This document shows positions 19,272 through 37,826 of a stretch of DNA of 57,812 nt, piece by piece (position 1 is the stretch's first letter; each line of letters begins with the position of its first letter). A model generated the notes under the pieces. The model was not told the DNA's origin. It did not search any database and was given only the letters and a program-made list of their open reading frames with translations. The position numbers and the translations under genes are program-made. This DNA comes from Micromonospora sp. CPCC 205371 (lineage in GTDB: Bacteria > Actinomycetota > Actinomycetes > Mycobacteriales > Micromonosporaceae): the NCBI RefSeq assembly GCF_026130045.1, contig NZ_JAIBNX010000002.1, forward strand, positions 62,674 through 120,485, in the 5' to 3' direction.

Positions 19272-22022
19272 ATGTCGACCCGCATCGAGGACCGGGCCGC
19301 TGCGGACTATCGCCTGGCCATCGCGACCGTGTGTCTTTCGGGAACCCTCGAGGACAAGCTCTCGGCCGCCGCGGCGGCGCGCTTCCAGAGCATCGAATTG
19401 TTCGACAGCGACCTCATCGGGTCGTCGTGGTCGCCACGCCGGGTGCGCCAGGAGTGCGCGCGGCGCGGGCTGTCGATCGACCTGTACCAGCCGTTTCGTG
19501 ACTTCGAGGCGGTCGCTCCCGACGTCTTCGCCGCCAACCTGCGGCGTGCGGAGCGAACGCTCGACGTGCTCGAGGAGTTGGGCGCCACCACCCTGCTGGT
19601 CTGCTCGTCGGTGTCGGCGGACGCGGTCGACGACGATGACCTCGCCGCCGAGCAGCTGCATGCCCTGGCCGGCCGAGCCGCGGAGCGCGGCCTGCGGATC
19701 GCATACGAGGCACTGGCCTGGGGCCGGTTCGTGAACACCTACGCGCACGCGTGGCGTATCGTGCGGCGCGCCGGCCACCCGGCGCTGGGCCTGTGTCTGG
19801 ACAGCTTCCACGTGCTCTCGCGCGGCGACGATCCGGCCGGCATCCGGGTCGTGCCCGGGGCGAAGGTGTTCCACGTGCAGTTGGCGGACGCACCACGGCT
19901 GAGCATGGACGTGGTGGAGTGGAGCCGGCACCATCGCCTGTTTCCCGGGCTCGGCTCGTTCGACCTCACCGCCTTCGTCGGCCATGTGCTGGCCACCGGC
20001 TACGACGGGCCGCTGTCGCTGGAGGTCTTCAATGACGTCTACCGGCAGGCAGATCCCCGGTACGCGGCGATCGACGGTATGCGCTCGCTGCTTGCCCTGC
20101 AGGAGGCGGCGGCCGTGGCCGCCGGCCCCGCGGTACGGGAGCGGCTTCAACTGAGTGGTTTGCCGCCGGCGCCTTCGCTGGCCGGGCACGTGTTCACCGA
20201 GCTTGCCGTCGACGCCGTCTCTGGCGCGGCGACGGCACGCGCCTTGACCGCGCTCGGGTTCGCCCACACCAGGCAACACCGCTCCAAGCCGGTGCAGCTT
20301 TGGGAGCAGGGCAAGGCCCGGATTCTGCTGAACTTCGCTCCACAGAGGACGGTAATCCCGGGTACGGCTTCGATCTGCGCGCTGGCGGTGGAGAGCGAGG
20401 ATCCGGTCGGGTCGACGCGGCGGGCGGAACGGTTGCTCGCCCCGGTGCTGCCGCGCCTGCGCCAGCCGGAGGAGGCGGAGCTCACGTCGGTCGCCGCCCC
20501 GGACGGGACGGCGGTCTTCCTGGTCCGCACCGGTGTCGACGGTGACAGCTGGCTGCAGGATTTCACCCCGACCGACGCGACGGTGTCCGCCACGGGCGGC
20601 ATCACCGACACTGACCACGTCTCGCTGACCGACGCCGTCGACGACTTCGACGAGACGACGCTGTTCTACCGCGCGGTGCTCGGCCTGCACGCCGGCCAGA
20701 CCACTGAGATCGCCGCGCCTTTCGGCCTGATCCGCAGCCGGGCCGCCACCGATCCGGCCGGGCGGGTCAGAATCAGCCTTCATACGGCGCCGCTGCGTCG
20801 CGGCGACTGGGCGCCGGCCATCCCCAACCCACAGCACGTCGCTTTCCGCACCGACGACGCGATCGCCAGCGCGAAGGCCATGCGGGCGTTCGGCGCACCG
20901 ATCCTGAAGATCCCGGACAACTACTACGCCGACCTCGACGCCCGCCTCGACCTGCCACCGGACCTGCTGGCGGCGCTGCGCGAGTACTCGATCCTCTACG
21001 ACCGTGACGAGTACGGCGCGTACCTGCACTTCTACACCGAGATGCTCGGCTCGCGCGTCTTCTTCGCTGTGGTGCAACGCGTCGGCGCGTACGGGGGCTA
21101 CGGCGATCCGAGTGCTCCGGTCCGGATGGCGGCGCATCGGGAACGCCGGCTGATCGCGTTGCGGGACACCCCGGTGTCGCGTCGGGACGAGCGGCACGAG
21201 TATTCGCTGGCCCATCTGACGGCGTTGAGCCTGTCCCCGCCGGAGCTCGTCGATGCCGCCGCGGACGCCGGCTACCGGTATGTCGGGTTGCGGCTGACGC
21301 GGGTGACGCCGCAGGAGCCGCACTACCCGCTGGCCACCGATCCGGCCCTGATGCGCACCACCAGGGTGCGCCTCGCCGCGACCGGCGTCGAGGTCCTCGA
21401 CATCGAGCTCGCCCGGATCAGCCCGGACGAGGACCCGAAGGACTTCCTGCGCTTCCTGGAGGCGGGCGCGGAGCTCGGGGCACGGCACGTCATCGCACAG
21501 CTACCCGATCCCGACCGGGTGCGCAAGGTCGACCGGTTCGCGCAGCTGTGCGAGATGGCGCGACCGCTCGGCCTCACGGTCGACCTGGAGTTTCCATCGT
21601 GGACGGAGACACCGGACCTCCGCGAGGCGGTGCGCGTGCTGCGCAGCGCCGACCAGCCCAACGCGGGCATCCTCGTCGACCTGCTGCACTTCGCCCGCTC
21701 CGGATCGAGCGTCGCGGACCTCCGCCAGCTGCCGGCCGAGTGGTTCCACTTCGTGCATGTCTGCGACGCGCCACCGAAGGTGCCAGCCACGAACGAGGGC
21801 CTCATCCACACCGCGCGGTTCGAGCGGCTCTTTCCCGGTGAAGGGGGTATCGACGTACACGGCATCCTGGAGGCCTTGCCGCGCGGCCTGCCGTACGCCT
21901 TGGAGATCCCGAAGGCGACGCTGGTGGCGCAGGTGGGCGGCAAGGAGCACGCCCGCTTGGCGATTGCGGCCGCGCGCGAACATCTCGACCGCGCACCGGA
22001 AGCGGCCGGATCAGTGTCCTGA
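19272..22022 (+). CDS. 3-dehydroshikimate dehydratase fused to HPPD-like VOC and a second xylose-isomerase-like TIM barrel
   Basis: 916 residues, ATG preceded by GGAGGGG. Residues 12-280 are an AsbF/QsuB-type sugar-phosphate-isomerase barrel with metal-ligand candidates E146, D177, H180, Q203 and E251. This type converts 3-dehydroshikimate to protocatechuate. Residues about 295-630 form an HPPD-like double VOC with H449, H522 and E590 as a 2-His-1-Glu set, as in the QsuB layout. Residues about 640-910 are unlike the usual ~620-residue architecture: a second TIM barrel with E773, D803, H806, H829 and E878 in comparable positions. The product would feed protocatechuate catabolism. No dioxygenase gene for that product is in the window. 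The stop overlaps the convergent dehydrogenase gene by 12 bp. Confidence 0.88.
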   Translation: MSTRIEDRAAADYRLAIATVCLSGTLEDKLSAAAAARFQSIELFDSDLIGSSWSPRRVRQECARRGLSIDLYQPFRDFEAVAPDVFAANLRRAERTLDVLEELGATTLLVCSSVSADAVDDDDLAAEQLHALAGRAAERGLRIAYEALAWGRFVNTYAHAWRIVRRAGHPALGLCLDSFHVLSRGDDPAGIRVVPGAKVFHVQLADAPRLSMDVVEWSRHHRLFPGLGSFDLTAFVGHVLATGYDGPLSLEVFNDVYRQADPRYAAIDGMRSLLALQEAAAVAAGPAVRERLQLSGLPPAPSLAGHVFTELAVDAVSGAATARALTALGFAHTRQHRSKPVQLWEQGKARILLNFAPQRTVIPGTASICALAVESEDPVGSTRRAERLLAPVLPRLRQPEEAELTSVAAPDGTAVFLVRTGVDGDSWLQDFTPTDATVSATGGITDTDHVSLTDAVDDFDETTLFYRAVLGLHAGQTTEIAAPFGLIRSRAATDPAGRVRISLHTAPLRRGDWAPAIPNPQHVAFRTDDAIASAKAMRAFGAPILKIPDNYYADLDARLDLPPDLLAALREYSILYDRDEYGAYLHFYTEMLGSRVFFAVVQRVGAYGGYGDPSAPVRMAAHRERRLIALRDTPVSRRDERHEYSLAHLTALSLSPPELVDAAADAGYRYVGLRLTRVTPQEPHYPLATDPALMRTTRVRLAATGVEVLDIELARISPDEDPKDFLRFLEAGAELGARHVIAQLPDPDRVRKVDRFAQLCEMARPLGLTVDLEFPSWTETPDLREAVRVLRSADQPNAGILVDLLHFARSGSSVADLRQLPAEWFHFVHVCDAPPKVPATNEGLIHTARFERLFPGEGGIDVHGILEALPRGLPYALEIPKATLVAQVGGKEHARLAIAAAREHLDRAPEAAGSVS

Positions 22023-22865
22023 GCTCAGCAGCTCGGCCGAGTGGGCGCGCATCGCCGCCGCGTCCGCGACCCGCCCGGTGAACAGCTCGAACGCGACGGC
22101 GGCCTGGTATGCGTTCATGCCGCCGCCGTGCAGTGTTGGCGCGCCGACGGCGCGGGCGGCGCGGAGCAGGGCGGTGTCGAACGGCCGGTAGACGACGTCG
22201 GCCACCCACAGGTCCTTGCGCAGGTCGGCTTCCGGGACGGGCGATCCCGGATGGTGTGCCATGCCGACCGGCGTGGCGTTGACGACGCCGTCGGCCTCCG
22301 CGAGCGCGGCGGTCAGCTTGCCCGGTTGCGCCGCTGTGACGCGGTCCTCGCCGAACTCGGCCGCGAGGGCGTCGGCCAGCCGGGTCGACTTGGCGAGGTC
22401 GAGGTCGACGAGGGTCAGGGTGCCGACGCCGAGTGTCAGCAGGGCGTGCGCGACCGCGCATCCGGCCCCGCCGGCGCCGAGCTGCACGACGCGGTCTCGC
22501 GGGGCGTCGGCGAAGTCCTGGGCGAAGCTGCGGGCGAATCCGGGGGCGTCGGTGTTGTAACCACGGCTGGCATCGCCGTCGAAAACGACCGTGTTGACCG
22601 CGCCGAGTACCCGGGCGTCGTCCGACAGCTCGTCGAGGTGCGGCACGATCTCCTGTTTGAACGGATGGGTGACGTTCAGTCCGCGGTATCCGAGCGTGCG
22701 GGCCCAGTGGAGCAGGTCGGGCAGGTCAGCGGCCGTCAGGCCGCGTTCGGCCGAGTCGATGGTCGTGTAGTGGAGCCGGATTCCCTGGCGATCGGCCTCC
22801 GCCTGGTGCAGCAGCGGTGCGTGTGATCGTTGGATGCCCTCGCCAACCAGTCCGATCAGGACCAT
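22011..22865 (-). CDS. Quinate/shikimate dehydrogenase (AroE superfamily)
   Basis: 284 residues (MVLIGLVGEGIQRSHAPLLHQ). Substrate-domain residues are present: NVTHPFKQ with the catalytic Lys and YNTDAPGF with the catalytic Asp. The Rossmann loop is QLGAGGAGCAVAHALL, and LVDLDLAKSTRLA suggests NAD rather than NADP because Asp follows the beta-2 strand. The GIQRSHAP and THPFKQ forms resemble catabolic QsuD-type enzymes more than biosynthetic AroE. It oxidises quinate and/or shikimate in the cytoplasm. It is the last gene of the TRAP transporter operon, 80 bp after dctP. Confidence 0.88.
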   Translation of the reverse strand: MVLIGLVGEGIQRSHAPLLHQAEADRQGIRLHYTTIDSAERGLTAADLPDLLHWARTLGYRGLNVTHPFKQEIVPHLDELSDDARVLGAVNTVVFDGDASRGYNTDAPGFARSFAQDFADAPRDRVVQLGAGGAGCAVAHALLTLGVGTLTLVDLDLAKSTRLADALAAEFGEDRVTAAQPGKLTAALAEADGVVNATPVGMAHHPGSPVPEADLRKDLWVADVVYRPFDTALLRAARAVGAPTLHGGGMNAYQAAVAFELFTGRVADAAAMRAHSAELLSSGH

Positions 22866-22945
22866 GGACACCTCCCGGTCGGGGCCGTTGGAGAAACGTG
22901 GAGGGCCGGGCACCCGGCCCTCCACATCGGACACGGCGTGACGGA

Positions 22946-23962
22946 TCAGGCGGACGCGCGGACGTTCTTGTACAGCTCCAGGTCCGCACCCTTGAAGTAG
23001 GTGTTGAAGTACGCCTCGGCCTTGCTGATGAACGCCTGGCGGTCGACCTGGTCGATCTCCACCACGGTCCGTCCCGACTCCGCTCGCCACCCGTCGAGCA
23101 CCTTCTCGGTTTCGTCGTCGACGCACTTGCGGTTTTCGGCGCGGATGTCGCGGATAGCCTTGAACAACGCGTCCTTCTGTGCCTGGCTCATCTTGTCCAG
23201 CGTCTTGTCCGACATGACGACGTAGTGGGTACCGACCTGGTGGTTTGTCAGGCTGGCGACCTTGAGGATCTCGTCGAACTTCTGCGCGTGGGTGGCGACG
23301 ACCGGGTTCTCCTGTCCTTGCGCGACGCCCTGCTGCAGCGCCAGGTAGAGCTCCTCCACGGCGATCGCCACAGCGTTCGCACCGAGCGCCTTGGCGTTGG
23401 CCAGAAACTGCGGCGTGTTCGGGAAGCGGATCTTCAGCCCGGCGAGGTCCTCAGGCTTGCGGATCGGCTTGGTCGCGGTGAAGGTCCGCATCCCGAAGTA
23501 CCAGGCGTCCACGATGGTCGTATCGGTGGCGGAGTTGAACTCCTTGAAGAATTCCTGTCCATTTTGGTCGATCCACTTGAAGAAGTGGTCGACGTCGTTG
23601 AACACGTATGCCGCGTCGAGGACGCCGATCTTCGGGAAGGCGGTGGACATCGCCGAGCCGCCCTGCAGGTCGATGTCGATGTCGCCGGCCTGCACGCTGG
23701 CGAACCGCTCGGCGTCAGGGCCGAGCTGGCTGTTCGGGAACAGGTCGAGGGTGAGATTGAGGTTCTGTCCTTCGACGCGCTCCTTGAGCAGCTTCATCCC
23801 GCAGTAGAAGTTGGGCTGGGTCTCGGGCTGGGAGCTACCGATCTTCAACGTGAGACGGGGGTTCTCACCTTCGGCGGCGGGTGCGTTGCTCTCCGTGGAG
23901 CAGCCGGTGGCGAGAAGCAAGGGCATGGTGAGGGCGAGCGCTGCGACGAGCCTTGAATACAT
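22946..23962 (-). CDS. dctP: TRAP transporter solute-binding lipoprotein, DctP family
   Basis: 338 residues with a lipoprotein signal (LLLATGCST). The DctP-family core includes LKIGSSQPETQPNFYCGMKLLKERVE, the conserved Arg/Asn region LAGLKIRFPNTPQFLANAKALGANAV and LYLALQQGVAQGQENP. TRAP receptors bind organic acids through an Arg-carboxylate salt bridge; R in KIRFPN is the candidate. With dctQM upstream and a quinate/shikimate dehydrogenase downstream, the cargo is probably quinate, shikimate or a related carboxylate. Lipid anchoring suits a Gram-positive. Confidence 0.92.
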   Translation of the reverse strand: MYSRLVAALALTMPLLLATGCSTESNAPAAEGENPRLTLKIGSSQPETQPNFYCGMKLLKERVEGQNLNLTLDLFPNSQLGPDAERFASVQAGDIDIDLQGGSAMSTAFPKIGVLDAAYVFNDVDHFFKWIDQNGQEFFKEFNSATDTTIVDAWYFGMRTFTATKPIRKPEDLAGLKIRFPNTPQFLANAKALGANAVAIAVEELYLALQQGVAQGQENPVVATHAQKFDEILKVASLTNHQVGTHYVVMSDKTLDKMSQAQKDALFKAIRDIRAENRKCVDDETEKVLDGWRAESGRTVVEIDQVDRQAFISKAEAYFNTYFKGADLELYKNVRASA

Positions 23963-23999
23963 GGGGTCTCCCTCTCCTCTCAGATCAGGGATGGGGTGG

Positions 24000-25280
24000 T
24001 CAGAATCCGAGGACGCGGGGCAGCCACAGGGCGACCGCTGGGAAGGCGGAGATCAGCACGAGTACGCCGACCAACGGGATCAGGAAGGGGGCAACCCCGC
24101 GGAACACCTCTTCGACCGGCCGCCCCGTTACCGAAGCGGTGACGAAGAGGACGCTCCCGACGGGTGGCGTCAACAGGCCGATCATCAGATTGATGATCAT
24201 TATGACCCCGAAGTAGACCGGATCGATCCCGAGGTCGATGGCGATCGGCAGCAGCACCGGCACGGTCACGAGGATGGCGGCCACCGCATCGACCACCGTG
24301 CCGAGGATGAGCATGACGATGTTGACCATGATGATGAAGGCCCACGGTTCGGTCGACACCGACGTCACCAGCTCTGCCACATCACGCGACACGTGCGCGC
24401 GAGTCAGGATCAGGCCCAGCAGCGCAGCCGAGCCCAGGATCAGCCCGATGCCGCCGGTGATGGCGGCCGTCTCGCGCAGGGCCTGCAGCAGCACCCGCGG
24501 CGTCAGCGTGCGGTAGGCCAGGCCCAGCATGAACATCAAGAGCACGGCCACCGACGCGGCCTCGGTCGGGGTGAACGTGCCCGACAGGATTCCACCGAGC
24601 AGGATGACCGGGACGAAGGCCGGGCCGATGGTGCCGATCGCCGCTCGGCGCAACCGCTTGCGGTCGAACGGCACGGAGGCCAGGTCGGGGCGGCGCGCGG
24701 TCCAGACGAAGACGTACACGCAGAGGCCGACCGCCATGAGCAGTGCTGGGACCACGGAAGCGGCGAACAGGGCCCCGGTGGAGACGGTCGCGGTGGCCGC
24801 GTAGATGACGGCGGGGATGCTCGGTGGCATGACCGGGCTGATGAGCGCCGACGACGCCGACAAGCCGGCGGCGAACCTGTAGGGGTAGCCCGCCTTGACC
24901 ATGTGCGGGACTTCGATCTTGCCCAGCCCGGCCACGTCGGCGAGCGCTGATCCGCTCATCCACGAGAAGCCCACCGCGGTGCCGATATTGACGTAGGCGA
25001 GGTTGCCACGAACTCGGGCGAGCGCCGCGAGGCAGAACTCGTAGAGCCGGTCTGCGATGCCGAGCCGGTTGGCCAGCACCCCGACGAGGATGAACAGTGG
25101 GACGGCCAGCAGCGGAAAGCTGTTGAGACCGTCGAATGTGGTCTTCAACGCGAACCCGCCGGAGTTTCCGTCGGCGAGCGCCCACCACAGGCTGGGGCCG
25201 ATGAAGGCGAGCCCGACCGGCACCCGGATCAACAGCAGGAAGACGATGACGAGGCCAACCATCCAGAGTTCGAGGATCAT
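24000..25280 (-). CDS. dctM: TRAP transporter large permease, DctM family
   Basis: 426 residues with about 12 hydrophobic segments. The DctM signatures are LLAVPLFILVGVLANRLGIADRLYEF, GFSWMSGSALADVAGLGKIEVPHMVKAGYP, SSALISPVMPPSIPAVIYA and NLMIGLLTPPVGSVLFV. The ATG at 25280 overlaps the dctQ stop (ATGA). It is the Na+-coupled transport subunit. The gene order Q-M-P differs from the common P-Q-M order. Confidence 0.93.
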   Translation of the reverse strand: MILELWMVGLVIVFLLLIRVPVGLAFIGPSLWWALADGNSGGFALKTTFDGLNSFPLLAVPLFILVGVLANRLGIADRLYEFCLAALARVRGNLAYVNIGTAVGFSWMSGSALADVAGLGKIEVPHMVKAGYPYRFAAGLSASSALISPVMPPSIPAVIYAATATVSTGALFAASVVPALLMAVGLCVYVFVWTARRPDLASVPFDRKRLRRAAIGTIGPAFVPVILLGGILSGTFTPTEAASVAVLLMFMLGLAYRTLTPRVLLQALRETAAITGGIGLILGSAALLGLILTRAHVSRDVAELVTSVSTEPWAFIIMVNIVMLILGTVVDAVAAILVTVPVLLPIAIDLGIDPVYFGVIMIINLMIGLLTPPVGSVLFVTASVTGRPVEEVFRGVAPFLIPLVGVLVLISAFPAVALWLPRVLGF

Positions 25281-25840
25281 CGGACCTCCGCCGCGTCGAA
25301 GACGGAGTCCGGCCGGTTGGCCAGGAAGATGCGCACGATCGCCCGCACGGTGCCGGAAAGGAACCCGACAAGCGGGAACGCGTACAGGATCCAGATCGGG
25401 ATCTCGAGAGCGGCCGTGCGCCGGTTGGGATAGGCCTGGATCAGCTCGAACGCTTCCCACACCAGCGCCGCGCAAATCACCGCCGTGCACGCGGCCGACA
25501 CAGCCTTGACGACCACGAGGGCCCGGCCTTTGACGACGTAGTCGATGATCTGGATGGCGATGTGGCCGTTGTTGCCGATGAGGTAGCCGACCATGACGAA
25601 CGTCAGGACGATCAGCGAGTAGTTGGCTATCTCCCCCACGCCGGGCCAGTTGAGGGCCGGCACGTACCTGCTGATTACCTGCCAGAGCACGCTGACGAAG
25701 ATGGCGACCACCGCGGCACAGGCGATCGACAGCTCCACTGACGCCCATACGCGCAGAACCGTCGGCTCCCACCGCCGGGGCACCTGCTCGGCGGCGTCCG
25801 CCGCGGAGCCGTCGGCGGTCTCCAGTTGCTCCGCTGTCAT
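25277..25840 (-). CDS. dctQ: TRAP transporter small permease, DctQ family
   Basis: 187 residues, four membrane segments. DctQ features are VLWQVISRYVPALNWPGVGEIANYSLIVLTFVMVGYLI and EIPIWILYAFPLVGFLSG. It has a longer acidic N-terminal tail than usual. It is the first gene of a minus-strand operon (dctQ-dctM-dctP-dehydrogenase), divergent from an IclR regulator. Confidence 0.92.
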   Translation of the reverse strand: MTAEQLETADGSAADAAEQVPRRWEPTVLRVWASVELSIACAAVVAIFVSVLWQVISRYVPALNWPGVGEIANYSLIVLTFVMVGYLIGNNGHIAIQIIDYVVKGRALVVVKAVSAACTAVICAALVWEAFELIQAYPNRRTAALEIPIWILYAFPLVGFLSGTVRAIVRIFLANRPDSVFDAAEVR

Positions 25841-29236: not shown

Positions 29237-31359
29237 TAGTAGACCTCGATCTTGCCGGTCGATCGGGGGCTGGCCGGGTCGTTGAAGAAGTACTCGCCGG
29301 TGCGGTCGAAGGTGTACTGGAAGGACGCGCCGGGTGCGAGGCGGACGTCGAAGAGGCCCTCGAAGAACTGGGTCGCGCCGCGTTCGCCGGCGTTGCCGGG
29401 ATGGTTGGTGAACGTGACGGTGGTGCCGACGGGGATGCGCAGATGGGTGGGGGCCATGCCGGCGACGGCGAACGACTCGGTCGTCCCGATCTGCCCGGTG
29501 GCGGCGTTGTAGGTGCGGCCGATGACGACGGTGTTGGCCACCGCGGCGCCTTCGACCGGCCCGCCGGAGACCGGCCGGCGGATCACCGGGGGCGGTGGGG
29601 TCGGCGCCGGTCCGACGGGTCCGTCGATCTCGAAGGCCCAGAGAAAGTCGCCGCGGGGTGCGGAGTTTCCGTACGGGATGTTGGTCCCACCGGCGTACAC
29701 GGCGAGGTATTCCTTGCCGCCGGCCCGGTACATGATCGGGCTGGCGCTGATCGCCGCGCCGGTCTGGAAGCGCCACAGCTCACGACTGGTGCGGGCGTCC
29801 ATGGCGATCAGGTTGCCGTCCGGCTGGCCGATGAACAGCAGGTCGCTGTCGGTGGTGAGGATGCCGTTGCCGTGCGCCAGCGAGTAGGGCATCCGCCGCT
29901 TCCACCTCACCTGGTTGGTACTCACGTCGACGGCGACGATGCCGCCGGTCTGGTACTCCCCCGGCGGCCGCAGGCCGTTGCTGCTCTCGGTGAGCGAGTG
30001 GGCGGCTGCGACGTATCCGAAGCCGGTGTAGACCAGGCCGGTGCGGTGGCTGAAGGACAGGTGCGACCAGTCCGCGCCGCCGCCGTGGCCGGGGATGGAC
30101 AGGACCGGCACGTCCCAGTGCGGGTCGTACAGGGCGCCCTGCACGTAGTTCGGCACGGCCCGGTTGGGGTCGCCCGGTACGGAGGTGCCCAGCGGCTGAT
30201 CCACGACACGCTGCTCGGTCCAGCCGCCCTGCACCGGGAACGGCTGGGTCGGCCACGTCTTCTGGCGCGGCTCCTGCGGCACCGGCCGCTCGACGATGCC
30301 CAGCGGCGCCGTGCCGTCGACCCGGTCGAGGATGAAGAACATGCCGGACTTGCTGCCGTAGACGACCACCTTGCGCCGCCGGCCCCGGATCTTGACGTCG
30401 GCGAGCACCGGCGCCATCACGTTGTCCATGTCCCAGATGTCGTGGTGCACCGACTGGAAGTGCCATCGGTACGCACCGGTGCGCATGTCCAGCGCCACCA
30501 GCGAATTCGCGAACAGGTTCTGCCCGCCGCGCGCCGAACCGTCCTGCGAGGAGTTGTTGCCGCGGGCGTTGCCGAACGTCCAGTACGTGAGCCCCAGCTC
30601 GGGGTCGACGGCCGGGTGAATCCACGGCGTGGCGCCACCCTCCAGGTAGGAGTCGCCCTCCCAGGTGTCGTTTCCGAACTCGCCCGGTCCGGGCGTGCCC
30701 CAGAAGTGCCACAGCAGGTCGCCGTTGCGGGCGTCGAGCGCCACGGCGGCACCGCGCGGACCGTCATTGGTGCCGCAGAACAGCATGCCGTCGCAGTACA
30801 CGACCGCGACCTTCTCGATGTTGCCGAAGCCGTTGACCTGGCGCTCCCACACGACCTGGCCGGTTGCCTGGTCCAGTGCGATGACGTAGTTCTCGTTCGA
30901 CTTCGTGAACACCTTGCCGTCACCGACCGCCACGCCGCGGCGGACCAGCGTGCCGCGCGTCTGCTCGTAACGCCATTTCGTCTGGCCGGTGACGCCGTCG
31001 ACGGCGACGACGTTGCCGGGCGCGGACTCGATGTAGATCGTCCCGTCGACCGCGACCGCCGTGCTCTCGTTGTTGCCTACGGTGATCCCGCCCTCGATGC
31101 GGTTGACCCACGCCCCGCGCAGGCGGCGCACGTTGCCGGGATTGATACGCCGCAGCGAGGTGTAGTTCTGGTTCCCCAGGTTGCCACCGACCTTGGGGAA
31201 GTCCTTGTCGCCCGGGGTGTCGAAACGGAGCAGGTCAGCGGCGCCGGGAGCGCGCCCGCCCGCGGCGGCGGGTGCCGCGGTGATGGCGGGGCCTGCTGTG
31301 GCCGCGGGGGGCGCCGCCCCGGCTGGCGTGGGGACGGTTCCTGGGGCGGTGTGTGCCAT
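29236..31359 (-). CDS. PQQ-dependent dehydrogenase with C-terminal cupredoxin-like domain
   Basis: 707 residues. After an Ala/Pro-rich N-terminus (1-45) without a recognisable signal peptide comes an eight-bladed quinoprotein propeller with repeated 'ALDA.tG..lW' blades (VALDARNGDLLWHFWG, VALDMRTGAYRWHFQ, AMDARTSRELWRFQTG). HHDIWDMDNVMAP carries the catalytic Asp. The last ~120 residues (IPVGTTVTFTNHPGN...FDRTGEYFF) form a cupredoxin-like fold, but the usual Cys-x-x-His copper loop is absent, and there is no CxxCH haem motif. It probably oxidises an alcohol; the related QuiA enzyme oxidises quinate. An in-frame stop upstream excludes a longer N-terminus. Confidence 0.87.
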   Translation of the reverse strand: MAHTAPGTVPTPAGAAPPAATAGPAITAAPAAAGGRAPGAADLLRFDTPGDKDFPKVGGNLGNQNYTSLRRINPGNVRRLRGAWVNRIEGGITVGNNESTAVAVDGTIYIESAPGNVVAVDGVTGQTKWRYEQTRGTLVRRGVAVGDGKVFTKSNENYVIALDQATGQVVWERQVNGFGNIEKVAVVYCDGMLFCGTNDGPRGAAVALDARNGDLLWHFWGTPGPGEFGNDTWEGDSYLEGGATPWIHPAVDPELGLTYWTFGNARGNNSSQDGSARGGQNLFANSLVALDMRTGAYRWHFQSVHHDIWDMDNVMAPVLADVKIRGRRRKVVVYGSKSGMFFILDRVDGTAPLGIVERPVPQEPRQKTWPTQPFPVQGGWTEQRVVDQPLGTSVPGDPNRAVPNYVQGALYDPHWDVPVLSIPGHGGGADWSHLSFSHRTGLVYTGFGYVAAAHSLTESSNGLRPPGEYQTGGIVAVDVSTNQVRWKRRMPYSLAHGNGILTTDSDLLFIGQPDGNLIAMDARTSRELWRFQTGAAISASPIMYRAGGKEYLAVYAGGTNIPYGNSAPRGDFLWAFEIDGPVGPAPTPPPPVIRRPVSGGPVEGAAVANTVVIGRTYNAATGQIGTTESFAVAGMAPTHLRIPVGTTVTFTNHPGNAGERGATQFFEGLFDVRLAPGASFQYTFDRTGEYFFNDPASPRSTGKIEVY

Positions 31360-31468
31360 GGGGTCACCTCTTCCTGGCCGCGGCTACCGGTCCCGTGCGC
31401 GTTGGGGGGCGGCCCGGGACGGTGCGATGCCGGCGCGGCCGTGGCTTGGTTGTCGGATTACGCGGGGT

Positions 31469-33244
31469 TCAGTCGAAGACGCCCTGGTAGATGTCCTTGA
31501 TGTTCCAGTGCCCCGGGGTGGGTACGGGTTCGTTGACCATGGGTACGTCGAGGACCGCCGGCCGGCGGGCCGCGATGGCGGCGCGGAGGGCCTCGCCGAG
31601 CGCGTCGGCGCTGTCCACGGTGTAGCCGTCCGCGCCGCAGGCTCGGCCGAAGGCGGCGAAGTCCGGGCTGTACGGCGCGCCGTCGGGCCCGAGGAAGTCG
31701 CAGCCGTAGCTGCGGCCGAAGTTCGCCGACTGGAGGTCGGAGATGGTGCCGTGGGACCGGTTGTTCATGACCACGAAGATCACGGGCGCGCCCTGCTCGA
31801 CGGCCATCGGCACGGCGGGTAGCTGTGCCCCCATACCGCCGTCGCCGATCAGGGCGACCACGGTGCGGTCGGGCTGGGCGATCTGGACGCCGACCGCCGC
31901 CGCCGGGCCGAAGCCCATTGTCGAGGCGCCCCCCGGGGTGATGAAGCGGCCCTGCTCGGGAAGTTCGTAGCACTGGGCCACGCCGTTCTTGTTCCACCCC
32001 ACGTCGGTGACGAGGATGGCGTCCGGCGGCAGGATGGCCCGCAGGTCGGTGAGAATCCGTTCGGGCCGCAACGGAAACCGCGCGCTCGTGCCGCGTTCCC
32101 GGCTCTCGGTGAAGAGGGTGCGGCGGGTGGCGGTGATGGTTTCCCGCAAACCAGGCCGCCGGCTGGGTGCGGGCTGCCGTTCGCGGACGGCCGCGTCGAT
32201 CGCCCGTACGGCGTCGGCCACGTCGGCGACGGCGCCGATGGTGACCGGGAAGTTGCGGCCGATCTCGGCCGGGTCGATGTCGATCTGGATGAGCCGCCCG
32301 GGTGGGAACTGCCACGTGTACCGGCGGTCCCAGGAGCTGGCGTCGGTCTCGGCGAAGCGGGTAGCCAGCGCCAACACGACGTCCGCCTCGCGGGTGTATC
32401 GGTTGGTCAACTCCAGACCCCAGAAACCCGGCATGCCCAGCAACAGCGGGTGGCTGTCCGGCAGTGTGCCCTTGGCCATCAGCGAATGCGCGACCGGGAT
32501 GTCCAGGTGCTCGACCAGCGAGCGCAGGGCCTCCAGGCCGGGGCCGCGACGTAGGCCGCCGCCCAAGTAGACCAGCGGCCGCTCGGCGGCGACGAGCAGG
32601 TCGGCGATGCGTCCGGCGGCGTCGGCGGGCAGGCCGGGCCGCTCCGGGGTCGCGAGCGGGAAGCCGTCGGCGGTATCACGCGGGACTGGGCGCGAGAAGT
32701 GGTCCATCGGTACGCTCAGCAGCACCGCGCCGGGACGCCCGGAGGTCGCGGTCCAGAACGCCCGCTCCGTGAACCGGGCCAGGTCGCCGACCCGGTGCAC
32801 CTGCCAGGCCCGCTTCACGAACGGCCGGTAGATGGCGGCCTGGTCGCCGTCGGCGTGCAGGTTCACCTCCTGGTGCGGATGCCGCCCCCGGTAGTAGGAC
32901 GGGATGTCGCCGGTGATCGCCACCAGCGGCACCGAGTCGAGCGCGGCGGTCATGACACCGGTGACCGCGTTGGTCATGCCGGGCCCGACATGCAGCAGTA
33001 CGACGCCCGGCTTACCGGTGGCGCGAGCGTAGCCATCAGCGGCGTGCGCGGCCGCCTGCTCGTGCCGGGCGATGACGAACCGGATGCTGCTGCGCCCCAT
33101 CGCGTCCAGCAGGGCGATGTTGGTGTGCCCGCAGGTGCCGAAGACGTGCTCGACGCCGTACGACTCGAGCTGCGCCACCATGGCCTCGGCCGCGGTGACC
33201 GTGTCGTTGCGCCGGCTGGCGTCCACCAGCTCGTCGAGGCTCAT
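31469..33244 (-). CDS. ThDP-dependent enzyme, acetolactate synthase/decarboxylase superfamily
   Basis: 591 residues with the three-domain ThDP architecture. The N-terminal Pyr domain has catalytic E62 (ARHEQAAAHAADGYARA). The middle domain has LIQIDIDPAEIGRNF, a DHS-like fold region. The C-terminal PP domain has VALIGDGGMGAQ...NNRSHG for Mg-ThDP. Its ATG overlaps the aldehyde dehydrogenase stop (ATGA), so an aldehyde product passed to that enzyme is likely. Candidate reactions are 2-oxoacid decarboxylation or, like cyclohexane-1,2-dione hydrolase and IolD of this superfamily, C-C cleavage of a cyclic 1,2-dione. The sequence alone does not decide between them. Confidence 0.88.
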   Translation of the reverse strand: MSLDELVDASRRNDTVTAAEAMVAQLESYGVEHVFGTCGHTNIALLDAMGRSSIRFVIARHEQAAAHAADGYARATGKPGVVLLHVGPGMTNAVTGVMTAALDSVPLVAITGDIPSYYRGRHPHQEVNLHADGDQAAIYRPFVKRAWQVHRVGDLARFTERAFWTATSGRPGAVLLSVPMDHFSRPVPRDTADGFPLATPERPGLPADAAGRIADLLVAAERPLVYLGGGLRRGPGLEALRSLVEHLDIPVAHSLMAKGTLPDSHPLLLGMPGFWGLELTNRYTREADVVLALATRFAETDASSWDRRYTWQFPPGRLIQIDIDPAEIGRNFPVTIGAVADVADAVRAIDAAVRERQPAPSRRPGLRETITATRRTLFTESRERGTSARFPLRPERILTDLRAILPPDAILVTDVGWNKNGVAQCYELPEQGRFITPGGASTMGFGPAAAVGVQIAQPDRTVVALIGDGGMGAQLPAVPMAVEQGAPVIFVVMNNRSHGTISDLQSANFGRSYGCDFLGPDGAPYSPDFAAFGRACGADGYTVDSADALGEALRAAIAARRPAVLDVPMVNEPVPTPGHWNIKDIYQGVFD

Positions 33245-34713
33245 GGCGTGCCTTCCTGGTCGCCGAACAGTGACATGCCGCGCAGCAGGAGCGTCTTGAC
33301 GACCGTGTAGTCGTCGATCATCCAGCGGGGCGACTCGCGGCCGAAGCCCGAGTCCTTGACGCCGCCGAACGGCACGTGGTCGAGGCGGTAGTTCGACGAA
33401 CCGTTGACCACCAGGCCGCCGACCTCCAGCTCGCGCCAGGCGGTGACGATCCGGCGGACATCGTTGGTGAACAGGCCCGCCTGCAAGCCGTAGCGGCTGT
33501 CGTTGCAGGTGGCGACCACGCCGTCGAAGTCGTCGTAGGGCAGGACGCTGACGGCGGCGCCGAACACCTCGTCGCGCAGCAGCCGGGCGTCTTCGGGTGG
33601 TGACGCCACGACCGTGGGGATCACGGTGGCGCCGTCGCGGCGACCGCCGGTGGTGACCGTCGCGCCGGCGGCTGCCGCCTCACCCCCCCCCGCGGCAACC
33701 CCCTGGGCCGCGCCCTCCTCCACCACCGCCCCCAGGTCGGGGGGGGGGTCGGGGCGGGCGCCGACCGTCAGCTTCTCCACCTGCTGGGTGAAGCTGTCGA
33801 GAAACTCCTCGTGACGGCTGCGGTGGACGTAGACCCGCTGCACGGATATGCAGCTCTGGCCCGAGTTGCTGTAGCCGGTGGCGGCACAGATCCGCGCCGC
33901 CAGGCCGACATCCGCGTCGTCGCACACGATGGTGGCCGCGTTGCCCCCCAGCTCCATGACGAGCCGCTTGGCGCCGGCCGCCCGGGCCACCGCCGCCCCG
34001 GTGGCCACGCTGCCGGTAAAGCTGATGACGCCGACCTCCGGCGCGGCGCACAGTGCCGCGCCGACGCGGCCGTCGCCGTGCAGCACTTGGACCGCCTCCG
34101 GCGGCATGCCCGCGTCCAGCAGCAGCGCCACGACCGCGGTCGAGGCGGCGGGAGCTTGCGGCGGCGGCTTGACGATCGTCGTGTTGCCGGCCGCGAACGA
34201 CGCCGCCAGCTTGTGCGCGAGCAGGTTGGCCGGCGCGTTGAACGGCGTGATGGCCAGCGCCACTCCCACCGGTGCGCGGTGCGTGAACGCGGTGGTACCG
34301 ACGCCCCGTGCCCAGCCGGCGACCGGAAGCACCTCGCCACCGATCCGGCGGGCCTCGGCGGCCGAGACCGCGAAGGTGTCGGCCACCCGGTCGATCTCGC
34401 CCAAGCCGTCCTTGATGGGCTTGCCGAGCTCCAGCGCCAACAGGCGGGCCAGTCCCTGCCGCCCTTCGACGGCGGCGGCCGCCGCCCGCTCCAGGACCTC
34501 GGCACGCGCCGCCCGCGGCATCCGGGCGACCGCCCTGGCCCCGTTCCGCGCGTACGCCAAGGCGGCCCGCACGTCGCTGTCGTCCGCCTGCCGGGCTGTG
34601 CTGACGACCCGGCGTGTCCAGGGACCAACCCGGTCGAGCCGCGTCCCGCCGGTGCGCCAGTCGCCCGCGACGAGGCAGCCGACCTCGACGAGTTCGGCCG
34701 AGTTGTCGAGCAT
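33241..34713 (-). CDS. Aldehyde dehydrogenase (NAD(P)-dependent)
   Basis: 490 residues from the ATG at 34713, first gene of the five-gene minus-strand operon. ALDH hallmarks are ITPFNAPANLLAHKLA, the catalytic Glu in VMELGGNAA, the catalytic Cys near residue 288 in GYSNSGQSCISVQR, and the C-terminal YRLDHVPFGGVKDSGFGRE. Residues 305-350 are abnormal (PDPPPDLGAVVEEG...VAAGGGEAAAAG): a helix normally rich in Glu, Trp and Val is Gly/Pro-biased, coinciding with C9 and G10 runs. It likely oxidises the aldehyde made by the overlapping ThDP enzyme. Confidence 0.9.
   Translation of the reverse strand: MLDNSAELVEVGCLVAGDWRTGGTRLDRVGPWTRRVVSTARQADDSDVRAALAYARNGARAVARMPRAARAEVLERAAAAAVEGRQGLARLLALELGKPIKDGLGEIDRVADTFAVSAAEARRIGGEVLPVAGWARGVGTTAFTHRAPVGVALAITPFNAPANLLAHKLAASFAAGNTTIVKPPPQAPAASTAVVALLLDAGMPPEAVQVLHGDGRVGAALCAAPEVGVISFTGSVATGAAVARAAGAKRLVMELGGNAATIVCDDADVGLAARICAATGYSNSGQSCISVQRVYVHRSRHEEFLDSFTQQVEKLTVGARPDPPPDLGAVVEEGAAQGVAAGGGEAAAAGATVTTGGRRDGATVIPTVVASPPEDARLLRDEVFGAAVSVLPYDDFDGVVATCNDSRYGLQAGLFTNDVRRIVTAWRELEVGGLVVNGSSNYRLDHVPFGGVKDSGFGRESPRWMIDDYTVVKTLLLRGMSLFGDQEGTP
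33683..33748. other. Homopolymer-rich tract inside the aldehyde dehydrogenase gene
   Basis: Nine C (33683-33691) and ten G (33739-33748) bracket a segment whose translation departs from ALDH consensus but stays in frame. Substitutions toward G or C in a hard-to-sequence region would explain this. Real divergence is the alternative. Confidence 0.5.
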
Positions 34714-34749
34714 CACCGCTCCTCCACCTGAACCACTAAGCGGCCCATC

Positions 34750-34767
34750 TGGACCGTTGTGCGGACT
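34750..34767. promoter_or_regulatory. Candidate IclR operator, aldehyde dehydrogenase/CoA-transferase region
   Basis: TGGACCG-N5-CGGACT, with the same form and spacing as the site at 25917. It is followed by ACTAGGTGTAACGTACGGG, which resembles GGACTGGATGTTAAGGTACGGG beside the first site (25941-25962). The site is 37 bp from the aldehyde dehydrogenase start and 72 bp from the CoA-transferase start. A shared regulator is inferred. Confidence 0.5.
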
Positions 34768-34838
34768 AGGTGTAACGTACGGGCGGCGAGGCCACCCTGG
34801 CAATAGCTGGTTCCAAACCAACGACCGAGGGGCAACGC

Positions 34839-36035
34839 ATGGAAGACCGACCGTTGCACGGCGTACGGGTCCTTGACCTGACCAACGTCCTGGCAGGCCC
34901 GTACTGCAGCTACCAGCTGATGCTCCTCGGCGCCGAGGTCGTCAAGATCGAGAAACCCGGTCACGGCGATCTCGCCCGCCGGCTCGGCCCCGAACCGGCG
35001 CTCAACAAGGCCGCCCTAGGCGCGTCCTTCCTCGCCCAGAACGCCGGGAAGAAATCGGTCGAGCTCGACCTCAAGGACCCACCCGACCGGGCCACCTTCG
35101 AAAGGCTGCTGGCCGGCGCGGACGTCTTACTGGAGAACTTCCGCGCGGGTGTCATGGAGCGCATGGGCTACGGCTGGGAGGCGCTGCACCGCATCAACCC
35201 GCGGCTGATCTACTGCGCGATCTCCGGTTTCGGTCAGGCCGGGCCGATGAGCCAGGCCCCGGCGTACGACCAGGTGATCCAGGGGCTCTCGGGCATGATG
35301 AGCATCACCGGCACCCCCGATACGGCCCCCCTGCGGGTCGGATTTCCGGTCTGCGACTCGGTGGGCGGCCTGGCGGCCGCGATGTCGATCTGCGCCGCCC
35401 TGGCCGGCCGGGCACACACCGGCAAGGGTGTCTTCCTCGACGTGTCGATGTTGGAGGCGTCCATGTCGGCAATGGGCTGGGCGGCCTCGAACTACCTCAT
35501 CAGCGACGTGCGGCCGGAGCCCATGGGCGACCAGAACGCCACCGCCGCGCCCTCCGGCACCTTCGAAGCGGCCGACGGGCCTCTCAACATCGCCGCGAAC
35601 CGGCAGGAACAGTTCGAGACCCTGTGCCATCTCATCGACCGGCGCGACCTGGTCACCGACGATCGCTTCGCCGACCGCGAGGCGCGCAAAGCGAACCGGG
35701 CCGCCCTCAACCACGAGATCAACGGGGCGTTGCGACGACGGCCAGCGCTGGAGTGGGAGCGACTGCTGTCCACGGCGGGCGTGCCGGCGGCCCGCATCCT
35801 CACCGTCGCGCAGGCTGTCGAGCTGGAACAGCTGCGGGTACGCGGCTACTTCACCGACCTTCCGTTCCCCGGCAACCCCGATCGCACATTGCGGGTCAGC
35901 GGCAACGGCGTACATCTCAACCGCGCCCCGCTGCGGCCAAGCTCGCCGCCACCGCTGCTGGGTGAACACAACGCCGAGTTCGAGATGCCGGACGCGGATT
36001 TGGCCGCCACGACGGAGCAGGTGACCGCGCCATGA
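34839..36035 (+). CDS. Class III CoA-transferase (CaiB/BaiF family)
   Basis: 398 residues. N-terminal family signature: LHGVRVLDLTNVLAGPYCSYQLMLLGAEVVKIEKP. The catalytic Asp144 lies in APAYDQVIQGLSGMMSITG, the residue that forms the mixed anhydride and Asp-CoA. LNIAANRQEQFETLC is the small-domain start. It moves CoA between a CoA thioester (for example succinyl-CoA) and a carboxylic acid. The 4-bp overlap with a citryl-CoA-lyase-like gene implies that its product is the lyase substrate. Confidence 0.93.
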   Translation: MEDRPLHGVRVLDLTNVLAGPYCSYQLMLLGAEVVKIEKPGHGDLARRLGPEPALNKAALGASFLAQNAGKKSVELDLKDPPDRATFERLLAGADVLLENFRAGVMERMGYGWEALHRINPRLIYCAISGFGQAGPMSQAPAYDQVIQGLSGMMSITGTPDTAPLRVGFPVCDSVGGLAAAMSICAALAGRAHTGKGVFLDVSMLEASMSAMGWAASNYLISDVRPEPMGDQNATAAPSGTFEAADGPLNIAANRQEQFETLCHLIDRRDLVTDDRFADREARKANRAALNHEINGALRRRPALEWERLLSTAGVPAARILTVAQAVELEQLRVRGYFTDLPFPGNPDRTLRVSGNGVHLNRAPLRPSSPPPLLGEHNAEFEMPDADLAATTEQVTAP

Positions 36036-36844
36036 GCGACGAACGCGCGCCCACGGTCCAGGACGTGGCCGACTGGTGGTCCACAGCCGTCTCGCGCGTC
36101 GAACCCAACCTGATAGAGCTGCGCGGCCGACCGGTCCAGGAACTCATCGGAAGCATGAGCTTCGTCGGGATGATCTGGTTGCTGCTGCGCGGGCAACCGC
36201 CCACCCCTGCACAGGAGCGACTCCTCGAGGCCGCCCTGGTGTCCTCTGTGGACCACGGTCCGCACGCGCCGTCGATCGCGGTCGCCCGCATCGCGGCAAC
36301 GTGCGGCATCGGTTTGAACAACGCCATCGCCAGCGCCGTGAACACGCTGGGCGACGTACACGGCGGCGCCGGCGAGCAGTGCATGCGGATGCTCGCCGAG
36401 GTCACCGCCCGCGCCGAGGCAGGCGAAACGATCGACCGCGCCGCGTCGTCCGTCGTCGCCGAATGGCGGGCGCGTTCACGGTACCTGCCGGGGTACGGGC
36501 ACCGGTTCCACACCGTCGACCCGCGGCGCGTCCCGCTGTTGCACCGCGTCGAGGAGGCGGTCGCGGACGGCACCGTTGCGGGTGCCTACCTGCGCGCCGC
36601 AACGGCTGTCGAACAGGTCCTCGCGACCGGACGGGCCAGTCCCATACCGATCAATGTGGACGGTTGCACCGCCGTGATCTACGGCGAGCTCGGATTCGCC
36701 CCGCCGCTCGCCCGCGGCCTGTTCGTCCTGAGCCGCAGCGTCGGCATCCTCGCCCACGCCTGGGAGGAGACCGGCCAAGGCCGTCGCAACAAAGGCCCGA
36801 TCCCACCGTCCATCACACCGACCTTCCTCGACCAAGGAGCATGA
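36032..36844 (+). CDS. Citryl-CoA lyase-like protein (short citrate synthase family)
   Basis: 270 residues, only the citrate-synthase large and small domain core without the N-terminal part of true citrate synthases. Catalytic elements are retained: LGDVHGGAGEQ (first His), LPGYGHRFHTVDPR (second His) and INVDGCTAVIYGELG (Asp). Short homologues cleave citryl-CoA-type thioesters into acetyl-CoA and a 2-oxoacid. Coupled to the CoA-transferase (ATGA), it likely cleaves a tertiary-alcohol thioester derived from the pathway. Confidence 0.88.
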   Translation: MSDERAPTVQDVADWWSTAVSRVEPNLIELRGRPVQELIGSMSFVGMIWLLLRGQPPTPAQERLLEAALVSSVDHGPHAPSIAVARIAATCGIGLNNAIASAVNTLGDVHGGAGEQCMRMLAEVTARAEAGETIDRAASSVVAEWRARSRYLPGYGHRFHTVDPRRVPLLHRVEEAVADGTVAGAYLRAATAVEQVLATGRASPIPINVDGCTAVIYGELGFAPPLARGLFVLSRSVGILAHAWEETGQGRRNKGPIPPSITPTFLDQGA

Positions 36845-36845
36845 C

Positions 36846-37826
36846 ATGCCCCTGAGACGTAACACGATCCTCAGCACCGCGTTCGGCGCCGCTATGGCGG
36901 CGACCGTCATGCTGCTGACCACGTCCATCCCCAGCGCGGCCGAGAAGCCGGCACACGACCCGAAGGAAAGCGGGGCACAGAACCTCGGAAACCCGGACTA
37001 CGGCGTCTGCCGAGGCACCGATCCGGAGTGCTACCACGACTGGGGCAACTTCGACCCGGCCACCGATGGATACCGCGTGCTGGTCTACAGCCGCACCGCC
37101 GGTCCGCGCCACGCCCACCTCGGTCCGGCCCTCCCACCCGGGCTGAACCCGCCACTCACACCCGCCCATGCCGCGCAGAACGCGCTCGTCAAGCTCGGCG
37201 CGGAGAACGACTTCGCCGTCGACTGGACCGAGGACGTCACCCAGCTCTCGTCACCGTCGCGGCTGTTCCGCTACAACGCGGTCATCTTCATGAGCACCAC
37301 CCGCGACACCCTCGACGACCCCGCTCAGACCGCACTGCGCCAGTACATCCGCGGCGGTGGCGGCTTCGTCGGCATCCACAACGCTTTTGGCACCGAGTAC
37401 AACTGGGAGTGGTACGAGGGCCTGCTGGGCGGCGCCAACTACTACGACCACGGGCGCAACCAGTCCGGCACCGTCGTGACGATGAGCCGCCGCGACGCCT
37501 CGACCGCCGGGCTGCCGGCCCGCTGGGAGTTCACGGACGAGTGGTACAACCTCGTGCCCTTCCCCAGCCGGGTCCGGATTCTCGCCAACGTCGACGAGGC
37601 CACACTGCCCGACGGGCCGACCGGCGGCAGCGGCCATCCCGGCCACGGCCGCAACCACCCCGTCTCGTGGTGCCAGTACTACGACGGCGGTCGCTCCTGG
37701 GTCACCACGCTCGGACACGCCGTCGAGGCGTGGACCGATACACCGACGACCGGCGACGAGTACTTCCTGCGCCACGTGCTCGGCGGGATCGAGTCGGCCA
37801 TGGGACGCGAGCCGTTCTGCCGATGA
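36846..37826 (+). CDS. Secreted ThuA-domain protein
   Basis: 326 residues with a signal peptide (about 1-31, ending SAA-EK). The ThuA/trehalose-utilisation fold, a class I glutaminase-like flavodoxin variant, is recognised by YRVLVYSRTAG, YNAVIFMSTTRDTLDD, YIRGGGGFVGIHNAFGTEY and the C-terminal GGRSWVTTLGHAVEAW. ThuA-like proteins often accompany sugar or cyclitol oxidoreductases, but a reaction is rarely known. It starts 1 bp after the lyase stop, so it is part of that operon. Confidence 0.88.
   Translation: MPLRRNTILSTAFGAAMAATVMLLTTSIPSAAEKPAHDPKESGAQNLGNPDYGVCRGTDPECYHDWGNFDPATDGYRVLVYSRTAGPRHAHLGPALPPGLNPPLTPAHAAQNALVKLGAENDFAVDWTEDVTQLSSPSRLFRYNAVIFMSTTRDTLDDPAQTALRQYIRGGGGFVGIHNAFGTEYNWEWYEGLLGGANYYDHGRNQSGTVVTMSRRDASTAGLPARWEFTDEWYNLVPFPSRVRILANVDEATLPDGPTGGSGHPGHGRNHPVSWCQYYDGGRSWVTTLGHAVEAWTDTPTTGDEYFLRHVLGGIESAMGREPFCR

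Follow-up and report, generated by a model that had tools for sequence, protein, structure and literature searches.

A conserved gene block in Micromonospora and other phyla that may open the ring of quinate and shikimate without aromatising it

The window analysed here is a stretch of 57,812 nucleotides (GC content 69%) from the 9.36-Mb genome of Micromonospora sp. CPCC 205371, and the gene island examined as a candidate for quinate and shikimate breakdown occupies positions 19272-37826. Identities of the window genes are based on gene calls and on profile scans with Pfam and NCBIfam models. Four genes form the core of the island: a thiamine diphosphate (ThDP) enzyme (31469-33244, minus strand), an NAD-type aldehyde dehydrogenase (33241-34821, minus strand, with a possible ATG start at 34713), a class III CoA-transferase (34839-36035, plus strand; PF02515, 396 bits) and a citryl-CoA-lyase-type lyase (36032-36844, plus strand; NF004864, 404.5 bits versus a cut-off of 261). 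The first two genes overlap by 4 bp (33241-33244), as do the last two (36032-36035). They are accompanied by genes of quinate and shikimate metabolism, namely a shikimate/quinate dehydrogenase (SDH; 22011-22865, minus strand; NF009201, 377 bits versus a cut-off of 235), a type II 3-dehydroquinate dehydratase (28793-29236, minus strand; profile match) and a 916-residue protein with a QuiC-type 3-dehydroshikimate dehydratase barrel (19272-22022, plus strand). A first-pass annotation of the island had named these families and both overlaps, together with a DctP/M/Q transporter, a quinoprotein-like protein and a Gfo/Idh/MocA oxidoreductase, and all of them were recovered where it had placed them. 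Its gene list needs to be extended by a ThuA-family gene (36846-37826, plus strand; profile match) and by genes for an IclR-family (26051-26926, plus strand) and a TetR-family regulator (27084-27746, plus strand; profile match).

A protein search with the ThDP enzyme over 151 related genomes found it in 19 of them. Eighteen of the 19 related places outside the window were compared over about 20 kb each, a 3.6-kb contig of G010 being left out. The ThDP and aldehyde dehydrogenase genes stand together in 18 of 18 loci and are joined by the CoA-transferase and lyase genes in 17, the exception being L023, whose contig breaks off next to the aldehyde dehydrogenase gene. The IclR gene is present in 17 of the 18 loci (L027 is the exception), and the genes for the tripartite ATP-independent periplasmic (TRAP) transporter, SDH, dehydroquinase, QuiC, quinoprotein and ThuA vary among them. 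In the window the TRAP transporter comprises the solute-binding protein DctP (22946-23962), the large permease DctM (24000-25280) and the small permease DctQ (25277-25840), all profile matches on the minus strand; a Liv-type ABC transporter replaces it in many loci, including 18 of the 29 actinobacterial loci of the wider sample described below. Outside the window, the names LysR, Liv, Tct and ThuA rest partly on reading of the sequences by eye. The lyase was found in 22 of the 151 genomes, among them all 19 with the ThDP enzyme.

A scan of named genomes with an alignment of the ThDP enzyme returned at least 80 loci, 52 at 39-77% identity and 28 remote ones at 31-37%, and these 28 served as controls from the same scan. 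The family set consists of 71 loci, 42 non-actinobacterial and 29 actinobacterial with the window included, of which 70 are distinct because L034 and L044 represent one locus, with an identical ThDP protein and contigs of equal length; several contigs are short, and the family is larger than the matches listed. By title, its members come from Actinomycetota, Pseudomonadota, Bacillota, Acidobacteria, Spirochaetes, Gemmatimonadetes, Phycisphaerales, Synergistales, a Thermoplasma bin and others. An acyl-CoA-forming set, defined as an NAD aldehyde dehydrogenase plus a class III CoA-transferase or else a CoA-acylating aldehyde dehydrogenase, occurs in 63 of the 71 loci, a lyase in 61, any shikimate/quinate gene in 44, an additional barrel domain described below (APE2C) in 39 and one of three scored transporter families in 47. 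Among the 42 non-actinobacterial loci the corresponding counts are 35 for the acyl set, 34 for the lyase, 27 for APE2C and 27 for a shikimate/quinate gene, and SDH, APE2C, the ThDP enzyme, the acyl set and a lyase occur together in 19. None of the 17 scored block families was found in any of the 28 control loci, so the association is above chance. The family hidden Markov models were seeded from loci that were later counted, their thresholds were chosen by eye from score distributions with two peaks, and the Fisher p values given below overstate significance since the sequences are related and not independent. By these comparisons the genes are conserved together as a block, alongside quinate/shikimate genes and far beyond this genome, a point that the first-pass annotation had proposed to check.

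Two observations on individual loci may be recorded here. The 738-kb plasmid pAZKH of Azoarcus sp. KH32C (L139), typed as mobilizable, carries the block as one compact run of genes for an HPPD-like protein, a sugar isomerase, a CoA-transferase, a citryl-CoA lyase, the ThDP enzyme, SDH and aroD. In two Bacillota a shikimate-kinase-family gene adjoins the block (L045:6616-7305 and L053:6531-7085, both minus strand); the L045 protein matches Pfam SKI and the L053 protein is 55% identical to it, and they are possibly sensor or salvage kinases.

The acyl-CoA-forming and lyase steps are encoded in more than one way. The CoA-acylating aldehyde dehydrogenase, SauS-like with 437 bits in one example and under that model's cut-off, is present in 29 of the 42 non-actinobacterial loci, where the NAD aldehyde dehydrogenase and the CoA-transferase are found in 11 each and both kinds of aldehyde dehydrogenase in four. 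An apparent fusion of the ThDP enzyme with the acylating dehydrogenase in L057 and L066 was rejected, since it arose artificially from a reading frame that stays open upstream in GC-rich DNA. The lyases of these 42 loci are mutually exclusive: 15 have the citryl-CoA-lyase type, 19 a 3-hydroxy-3-methylglutaryl-CoA (HMG-CoA)-lyase type (324 bits versus the HMG-CoA lyase cut-off of 246 in one example), none has both and eight, several of them short contigs, have neither (Fisher p 5e-6). Nor do both kinds occur together anywhere in the 71 loci. Judged by titles, both are found within Bacillota (L048 versus L045, L053 and L065) and within Acidobacteria (L063 versus L089), which suggests more than one swap. 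In the window lyase, His75, His110 and Asp163, whose catalytic roles we carry over from citrate synthase, are at least 93% conserved among 21 seed sequences, a pattern consistent with a citryl-CoA lyase. The sequence of events that the first-pass annotation had put forward, with opening of a ring by the ThDP enzyme, aldehyde oxidation, formation of a CoA thioester and retro-Claisen cleavage, accounts for the replacements by the acylating dehydrogenase and by the HMG-CoA-lyase-type enzyme, and gains support from these and from the conservation of the block. The lyase step would then be the cleavage of a 3-hydroxyacyl-CoA beside a tertiary alcohol, whichever fold performs it.

If the neighbours were unrelated, the ThDP enzyme would be nothing more than an acetolactate synthase or a benzoylformate decarboxylase, and the island would encode the classical protocatechuate route only. 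In keeping with this, its top NCBIfam match is acetolactate synthase (TIGR00118), and intradiol-dioxygenase-family genes lie elsewhere in the genome. However, the match reaches 369.7 bits, under the cut-off of 538, and the columns that hold Met (28/28) and Trp (25/28) in the acetolactate-synthase-like controls hold Thr (68/71) and Leu (69/71) in the family. The conserved block and its co-inheritance already disfavour unrelated neighbours, and we regard this alternative as highly improbable. The enzyme is also far from IolD (TIGR04377, 191.5 bits versus a cut-off of 715), of which the genome encodes a separate copy over the cut-off. The column of His28 of cyclohexane-1,2-dione hydrolase (CDH) is His in all 71 family loci and Gly in all 28 controls, and the string GHT is found in 70 of the 71; the CDH His31 and Asn484 columns are Ile in 67 and 70 members, respectively. 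Two further His residues are invariant (71/71), in the motifs LxHxGPG and PHQE, where the controls have Thr and Phe; read by eye, the former corresponds to CDH His76, a position that MAFFT did not align. The first-pass annotation had named an enzyme acting only as acetolactate synthase or benzoylformate decarboxylase as one outcome that would speak against it, and on sequence the absence of the two control residues with the presence of the CDH His points the other way. The CDH gene used here was recovered from the genome of Aromatoleum diolicum 22Lin (L131) and matches 2pgn over all 589 residues. This strain, which encodes the solved CDH, also carries a member of the ThDP family described here (L052/L126).

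The 916-residue protein contains more than the dehydroshikimate dehydratase that had been assigned to it. Profile matches divide it into a QuiC barrel (about 19308-20127), which retains its metal-site residues, an HPPD-like domain (about 20172-21153) and an AP_endonuc_2 barrel at the C-terminus (about 21192-21993, residues 631-905), the domain we call APE2C. The QuiC model NF042435 (635 positions) spans residues 16-625 with 604 bits, under its cut-off of 1200; the IolI/QuiC-like third domain that follows had been overlooked. In other phyla this barrel matches a stand-alone protein of 268-325 residues near the ThDP gene, which in clear cases scores 142-300 bits against the C-terminal part and at most 63 bits against the N-terminal part. 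The three domains share one open frame in the window, in L023, L025, L027, L035 and L083 and, at truncated ends, in L036 and L038. APE2C was found in 14 of the 151 related genomes. The ThDP gene is present in 13 of them (Fisher p 2e-13); the remaining one, G023, does have the lyase, and its QuiC half begins another contig, indicating that the assembly is broken there. QuiC itself occurs in 38 genomes, 17 with and 21 without the ThDP gene, and APE2C is present in 13 of these 17 versus one of the 21 (hand count; Fisher p 5e-6). APE2C thus tracks the ThDP gene and not QuiC, which argues that the domain belongs to the ThDP pathway. Its Glu/Asp/His(Gln)/Glu site is intact in all 36 complete domains (39 were found, three of them cut). 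In two relatives, G001:C2 and G059:C124, the APE2C match contains one in-frame stop, which could be a gene end, a sequencing error or decay.

Taken together, these data make it rather probable in our view that the enzymes of the island break down quinate and shikimate without aromatisation, by a route running through a dione, homocitrate semialdehyde and homocitryl-CoA to acetyl-CoA and 2-oxoglutarate. We infer its substrates, bond order and products from gene families, conservation, replacements and co-inheritance observed by comparison. SDH would oxidise quinate (C7H12O6) to 3-dehydroquinate (C7H10O6), and shikimate would enter through SDH and a reversed dehydroquinase. QuiC enolises the C3 ketone of dehydroshikimate at C4 and expels the C5 hydroxyl. 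APE2C, as a proposed dehydroquinate C5-dehydratase, may do the same with dehydroquinate, removing the proton at C4, adjacent to the C3 ketone, and expelling the C5 hydroxyl, and would yield 1-hydroxy-3,4-dioxocyclohexane-1-carboxylate (C7H8O5), a dione formed without a second oxidation that cannot aromatise because the tertiary alcohol at C1 is retained. The ThDP enzyme, as the proposed ring-opening 1,2-dione hydrolase, would cut C3-C4 hydrolytically, in the manner of IolD and CDH, to homocitrate semialdehyde (C7H10O6). Aldehyde dehydrogenase (to homocitrate, C7H10O7) and CoA-transferase, or elsewhere one acylating dehydrogenase, would form homocitryl-CoA with the thioester at C3, and the lyase, a putative homocitryl-CoA lyase, would release acetyl-CoA and 2-oxoglutarate by a retro-Claisen reaction, with the seven carbons accounted for as C2 plus C5.

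The step assigned to APE2C is where other chemistries compete. Its structural model (pLDDT 93.3) has IolI as the first Foldseek match, followed by Lmo2234 and QuiC, with the 2-hydroxy-3-keto-glucal hydratase AtHYD, IolE (3cny at rank 27) and AsbF lower down; IolI, Lmo2234 and QuiC are also its nearest relatives by sequence, with IolI as the best PDB match (E 8.4e-21), and the IolE model TIGR04379 gave no match to the window barrel at E 1e-5. An IolI-like isomerase action is therefore possible, in which case the ThDP enzyme would split an alpha-hydroxyketone (dehydroquinate or its isomer) in a retro-acyloin reaction, giving a dialdehyde whose C3 end is converted to the thioester ahead of the lyase. 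This would leave a hydroxy-oxo-aldehyde in need of a further dehydrogenase, and none was found in the most compact loci; moreover, QuiC, the partner to which the barrel is fused, belongs to a dehydratase family. An isomerase therefore seems rather unlikely to us. The compact loci, L073 and L079, consist of SDH, dehydroquinase I, APE2C, the ThDP enzyme, an acylating dehydrogenase, an HMG-CoA-lyase-type lyase, a LysR regulator and a transporter. Their other flanking open reading frames (ORFs) encode Dak2, an RpiB-like protein and a 722-residue protein without Pfam match in L073, and PhzF-like, OsmC, RNA- and protein-methyltransferase, dicarboxylate symporter and radical-SAM proteins in L079. No second candidate ring dehydrogenase is present in either flank, SDH being the sole non-aldehyde dehydrogenase family there, so two ring oxidations are unlikely in these loci.

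This bears on how the dione arises. The first-pass annotation had the additional dehydrogenases oxidise the ring to a 3,4-dione, with acetyl-CoA and 4-hydroxy-2-oxoglutarate as products. In such a scheme dehydroquinate would be oxidised a second time, by the Gfo/Idh/MocA oxidoreductase, a Zn-alcohol dehydrogenase or the quinoprotein, to a 5-hydroxy-3,4-dione. The Gfo/Idh/MocA gene of the window (27737-28786, minus strand; profile match, IolG-like but under the cut-off) appears to be accessory. It recurs in a minority of loci, and the family makes up seven of the 114 remaining ORFs in a survey of ORFs of 180-700 residues within 5 kb of the ThDP gene, covering 41 of the 42 non-actinobacterial loci (L088 omitted), in which 94 families were matched and 25 listed. 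A Zn-alcohol dehydrogenase gene lies between the aldehyde dehydrogenase and ThDP genes in ten loci. The frequent partner, however, is APE2C, a barrel of an elimination/isomerisation family, and an HpcH/HpaI aldolase, as 4-hydroxy-2-oxoglutarate would require, accounts for two of the 114 ORFs, with no KHG/KDPG aldolase among the 25 of 94 families listed. Together with the single ring dehydrogenase of L073 and L079, this makes a second oxidation unlikely as the general rule; the compact loci speak for dehydration, from which acetyl-CoA and 2-oxoglutarate would follow as products.

Several observations nevertheless weigh against dehydration by APE2C and the route built on it. The Gfo/Idh/MocA gene is present in the window itself, and in two Rhodobacterales loci (L060, L064) the HpcH/HpaI aldolase lies beside the ThDP gene. 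At E 1e-40, six of the 19 related ThDP genomes lack APE2C, one of them 69% complete. When 21 genomes or records without APE2C in the locus were tested (the short contigs L049, L054 and L071 were left out), ten had it elsewhere, including the KH32C plasmid at 14 kb distance, and 11 had none. The core without APE2C is found in the actinobacterial genomes of L039, L040, L042, L044, L085, G041, G102, G124 and G132, and the APE2C-less loci L030, L032, L039, L042 and L048 have the Zn-alcohol dehydrogenase between the aldehyde dehydrogenase and ThDP genes, which favours oxidation there. In this APE2C-less subset the dione would have to come from another source, perhaps a second ring oxidation; alternatively, the substrate may differ there. 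In addition, the isomerase IolI resembles APE2C more closely than IolE or AsbF does, identity between the ThDP enzyme and CDH is only 28%, the lyase occurs without the ThDP enzyme in three of its 22 genomes (G023, G076 and G116), and in L050 and the KH32C plasmid the CoA-transferase, lyase, ThDP, SDH and QuiC-like barrel genes have no aldehyde dehydrogenase nearby in the stretch examined.

The quinoprotein-like beta-propeller (29236-31359, minus strand) had been taken for a pyrroloquinoline quinone (PQQ) dehydrogenase and counted among the genes that the classical route does not need. It scores 197 bits versus 833 for TIGR03074, whose name agrees with QuiA being a PQQ enzyme, and 274 versus 480 for TIGR03075; its best match is an 'empty quinoprotein' model, again under the cut-off. 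Aligned to 1kb0, it lacks the Cys-Cys pair and the Glu of PQQ enzymes, which we take to be PQQ-site residues, the Glu presumably being a calcium ligand. No PqqE over the cut-off was found in this genome, but the same model found none in 14 control genomes either, leaving the search without a positive control. The protein seems degenerate; it is under the cut-off of every PQQ-dehydrogenase model it matched. Nor was a PQQ dehydrogenase surplus to begin with, as quinate dehydrogenase QuiA is described as part of the classical route in the accessible portion of PMC4213383. The propeller has a tail at its C-terminus that looks like a cupredoxin by eye, and its gene often shares loci with the ThuA gene. 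Both genes recur in many actinobacterial loci; L039, L040, L042, L044 and L085, which have the core without APE2C, all carry both. Taken as a whole, the earlier interpretation is partly supported by these comparisons.

The aromatising branch is encoded as well, the island having a QuiC domain, SDH and dehydroquinase. There are two copies of the type II 3-dehydroquinate dehydratase in the genome, which fits the island copy being a catabolic duplicate, and a profile search found no type I enzyme (PF01487) there. Two adjacent intradiol-dioxygenase-family ORFs on contig C121 are likely pcaH and pcaG, so both routes may run in this strain. In other loci the QuiC barrel is less constant. With active-site residues taken from the description of QsuB in the accessible part of PMC7442255, at least one metal ligand is lost in six of 20 QuiC-barrel matches (L046, L057, L058, L059, L062 and L082), of which those in L046 and L082 score low (189 and 227 bits, where most full ones reach 311-429) and could belong to other barrels; in L036 and L028 the match is truncated, split or poorly aligned, and L052 has Glu changed to Asp. 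Three QuiC-HPPD-like proteins beside the ThDP block have a QuiC barrel in which metal ligands are lost (L058:899-2785, L059:911-2827 and L062:3765-5657, all plus strand), with Glu changed to Leu or Gln, Asp to Asn and the last Glu to Ala or Asp, and the APE2C protein there is intact; these are possibly dead aromatising enzymes kept in the operon. In 12 family genomes, mostly of genera we regard as anaerobes, the QuiC-barrel query gave a single match under E 1e-6, with 30 bits and 19% identity, and no clear QuiC was therefore counted in them.

These data also bear on a role of the block downstream of aromatic ring cleavage, in which the ThDP enzyme would decarboxylate 4-carboxy-4-hydroxy-2-oxoadipate, a product of protocatechuate 4,5-cleavage, to citrate semialdehyde, followed by citrate, citryl-CoA and finally acetyl-CoA plus oxaloacetate. 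The chemistry closes on genuine citryl-CoA and the aromatising QuiC domain is present, but the lyase would be superfluous for free citrate, and no extradiol ring-cleavage dioxygenase family appeared in the profile scans made or among the 25 of 94 families listed. The block keeps company with quinate genes and APE2C, and it occurs in the presumed anaerobes without a clear QuiC barrel. We consider this role very unlikely.

Plants produce esters of quinate and shikimate in abundance. Protocatechuate ring cleavage requires oxygen in the familiar pathways. The known bacterial breakdown of quinate and shikimate proceeds through protocatechuate according to the portion of PMC4213383 available, and reference-list titles record Ilyobacter insuetus and Propionivibrio limicola as specialist fermenters of hydroaromatic compounds; no genes for their hydroaromatic fermentation were found in the open-access literature. 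A ring-opening quinate/shikimate route is likewise not described in the accessible portions of PMC4213383, PMC12247030, PMC7442255, PMC3035301, PMC11881992 and PMC5562018, and no description was found in the open-access literature, a weak absence given that subscription journals are mostly outside it. We hold the chances to be even that the block represents an undescribed and widespread central pathway, working with or without oxygen, that includes a new 3-dehydroquinate dehydratase family and new homocitryl-CoA lyases built on two unrelated folds and provides the genes so far missing for fermenting hydroaromatic acids anaerobically. The block supplies testable candidate genes and a ring-opening chemistry that would be new for quinate and shikimate, likely with a new dehydratase family and one retro-Claisen step served by two unrelated lyase folds; if the route is true, it would provide those fermentation genes.

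The proposed route resembles known systems step by step. IolE dehydrates an alpha,beta-dihydroxyketone of the myo-inositol pathway to a cyclic 1,2-dione, the ThDP hydrolase IolD opens the ring, and a kinase and an aldolase follow. The island would likewise pair a metal-dependent barrel, predicted to have the IolI/IolE fold, with a ThDP hydrolase, but it would act on a cyclitol bearing a carboxyl group and a tertiary alcohol, its ThDP enzyme is far under the IolD cut-off, and its downstream part would be CoA activation and retro-Claisen cleavage instead of kinase and aldolase. With CDH, the ThDP enzyme would share cleavage of a cyclic 1,2-dione and does share the GHT motif with His28; they differ in overall sequence (28% identity) and in the Asn484 column, which is Ile in nearly all of the family. 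Both the C-C cleavage by CDH and its H28A/N484A variant are named in the accessible portion of PMC12247030. The window lyase and its substitute in other phyla satisfy the citryl-CoA lyase and HMG-CoA lyase models, respectively, and the substrate proposed for both, homocitryl-CoA, is different. Finally, the island shares SDH, dehydroquinase and a QuiC domain with the classical QuiA/QuiB/QuiC route, to which it adds the extra barrel, the ThDP enzyme, thioester formation and the lyase, and many loci with the block have either no QuiC barrel or one that has lost metal ligands.

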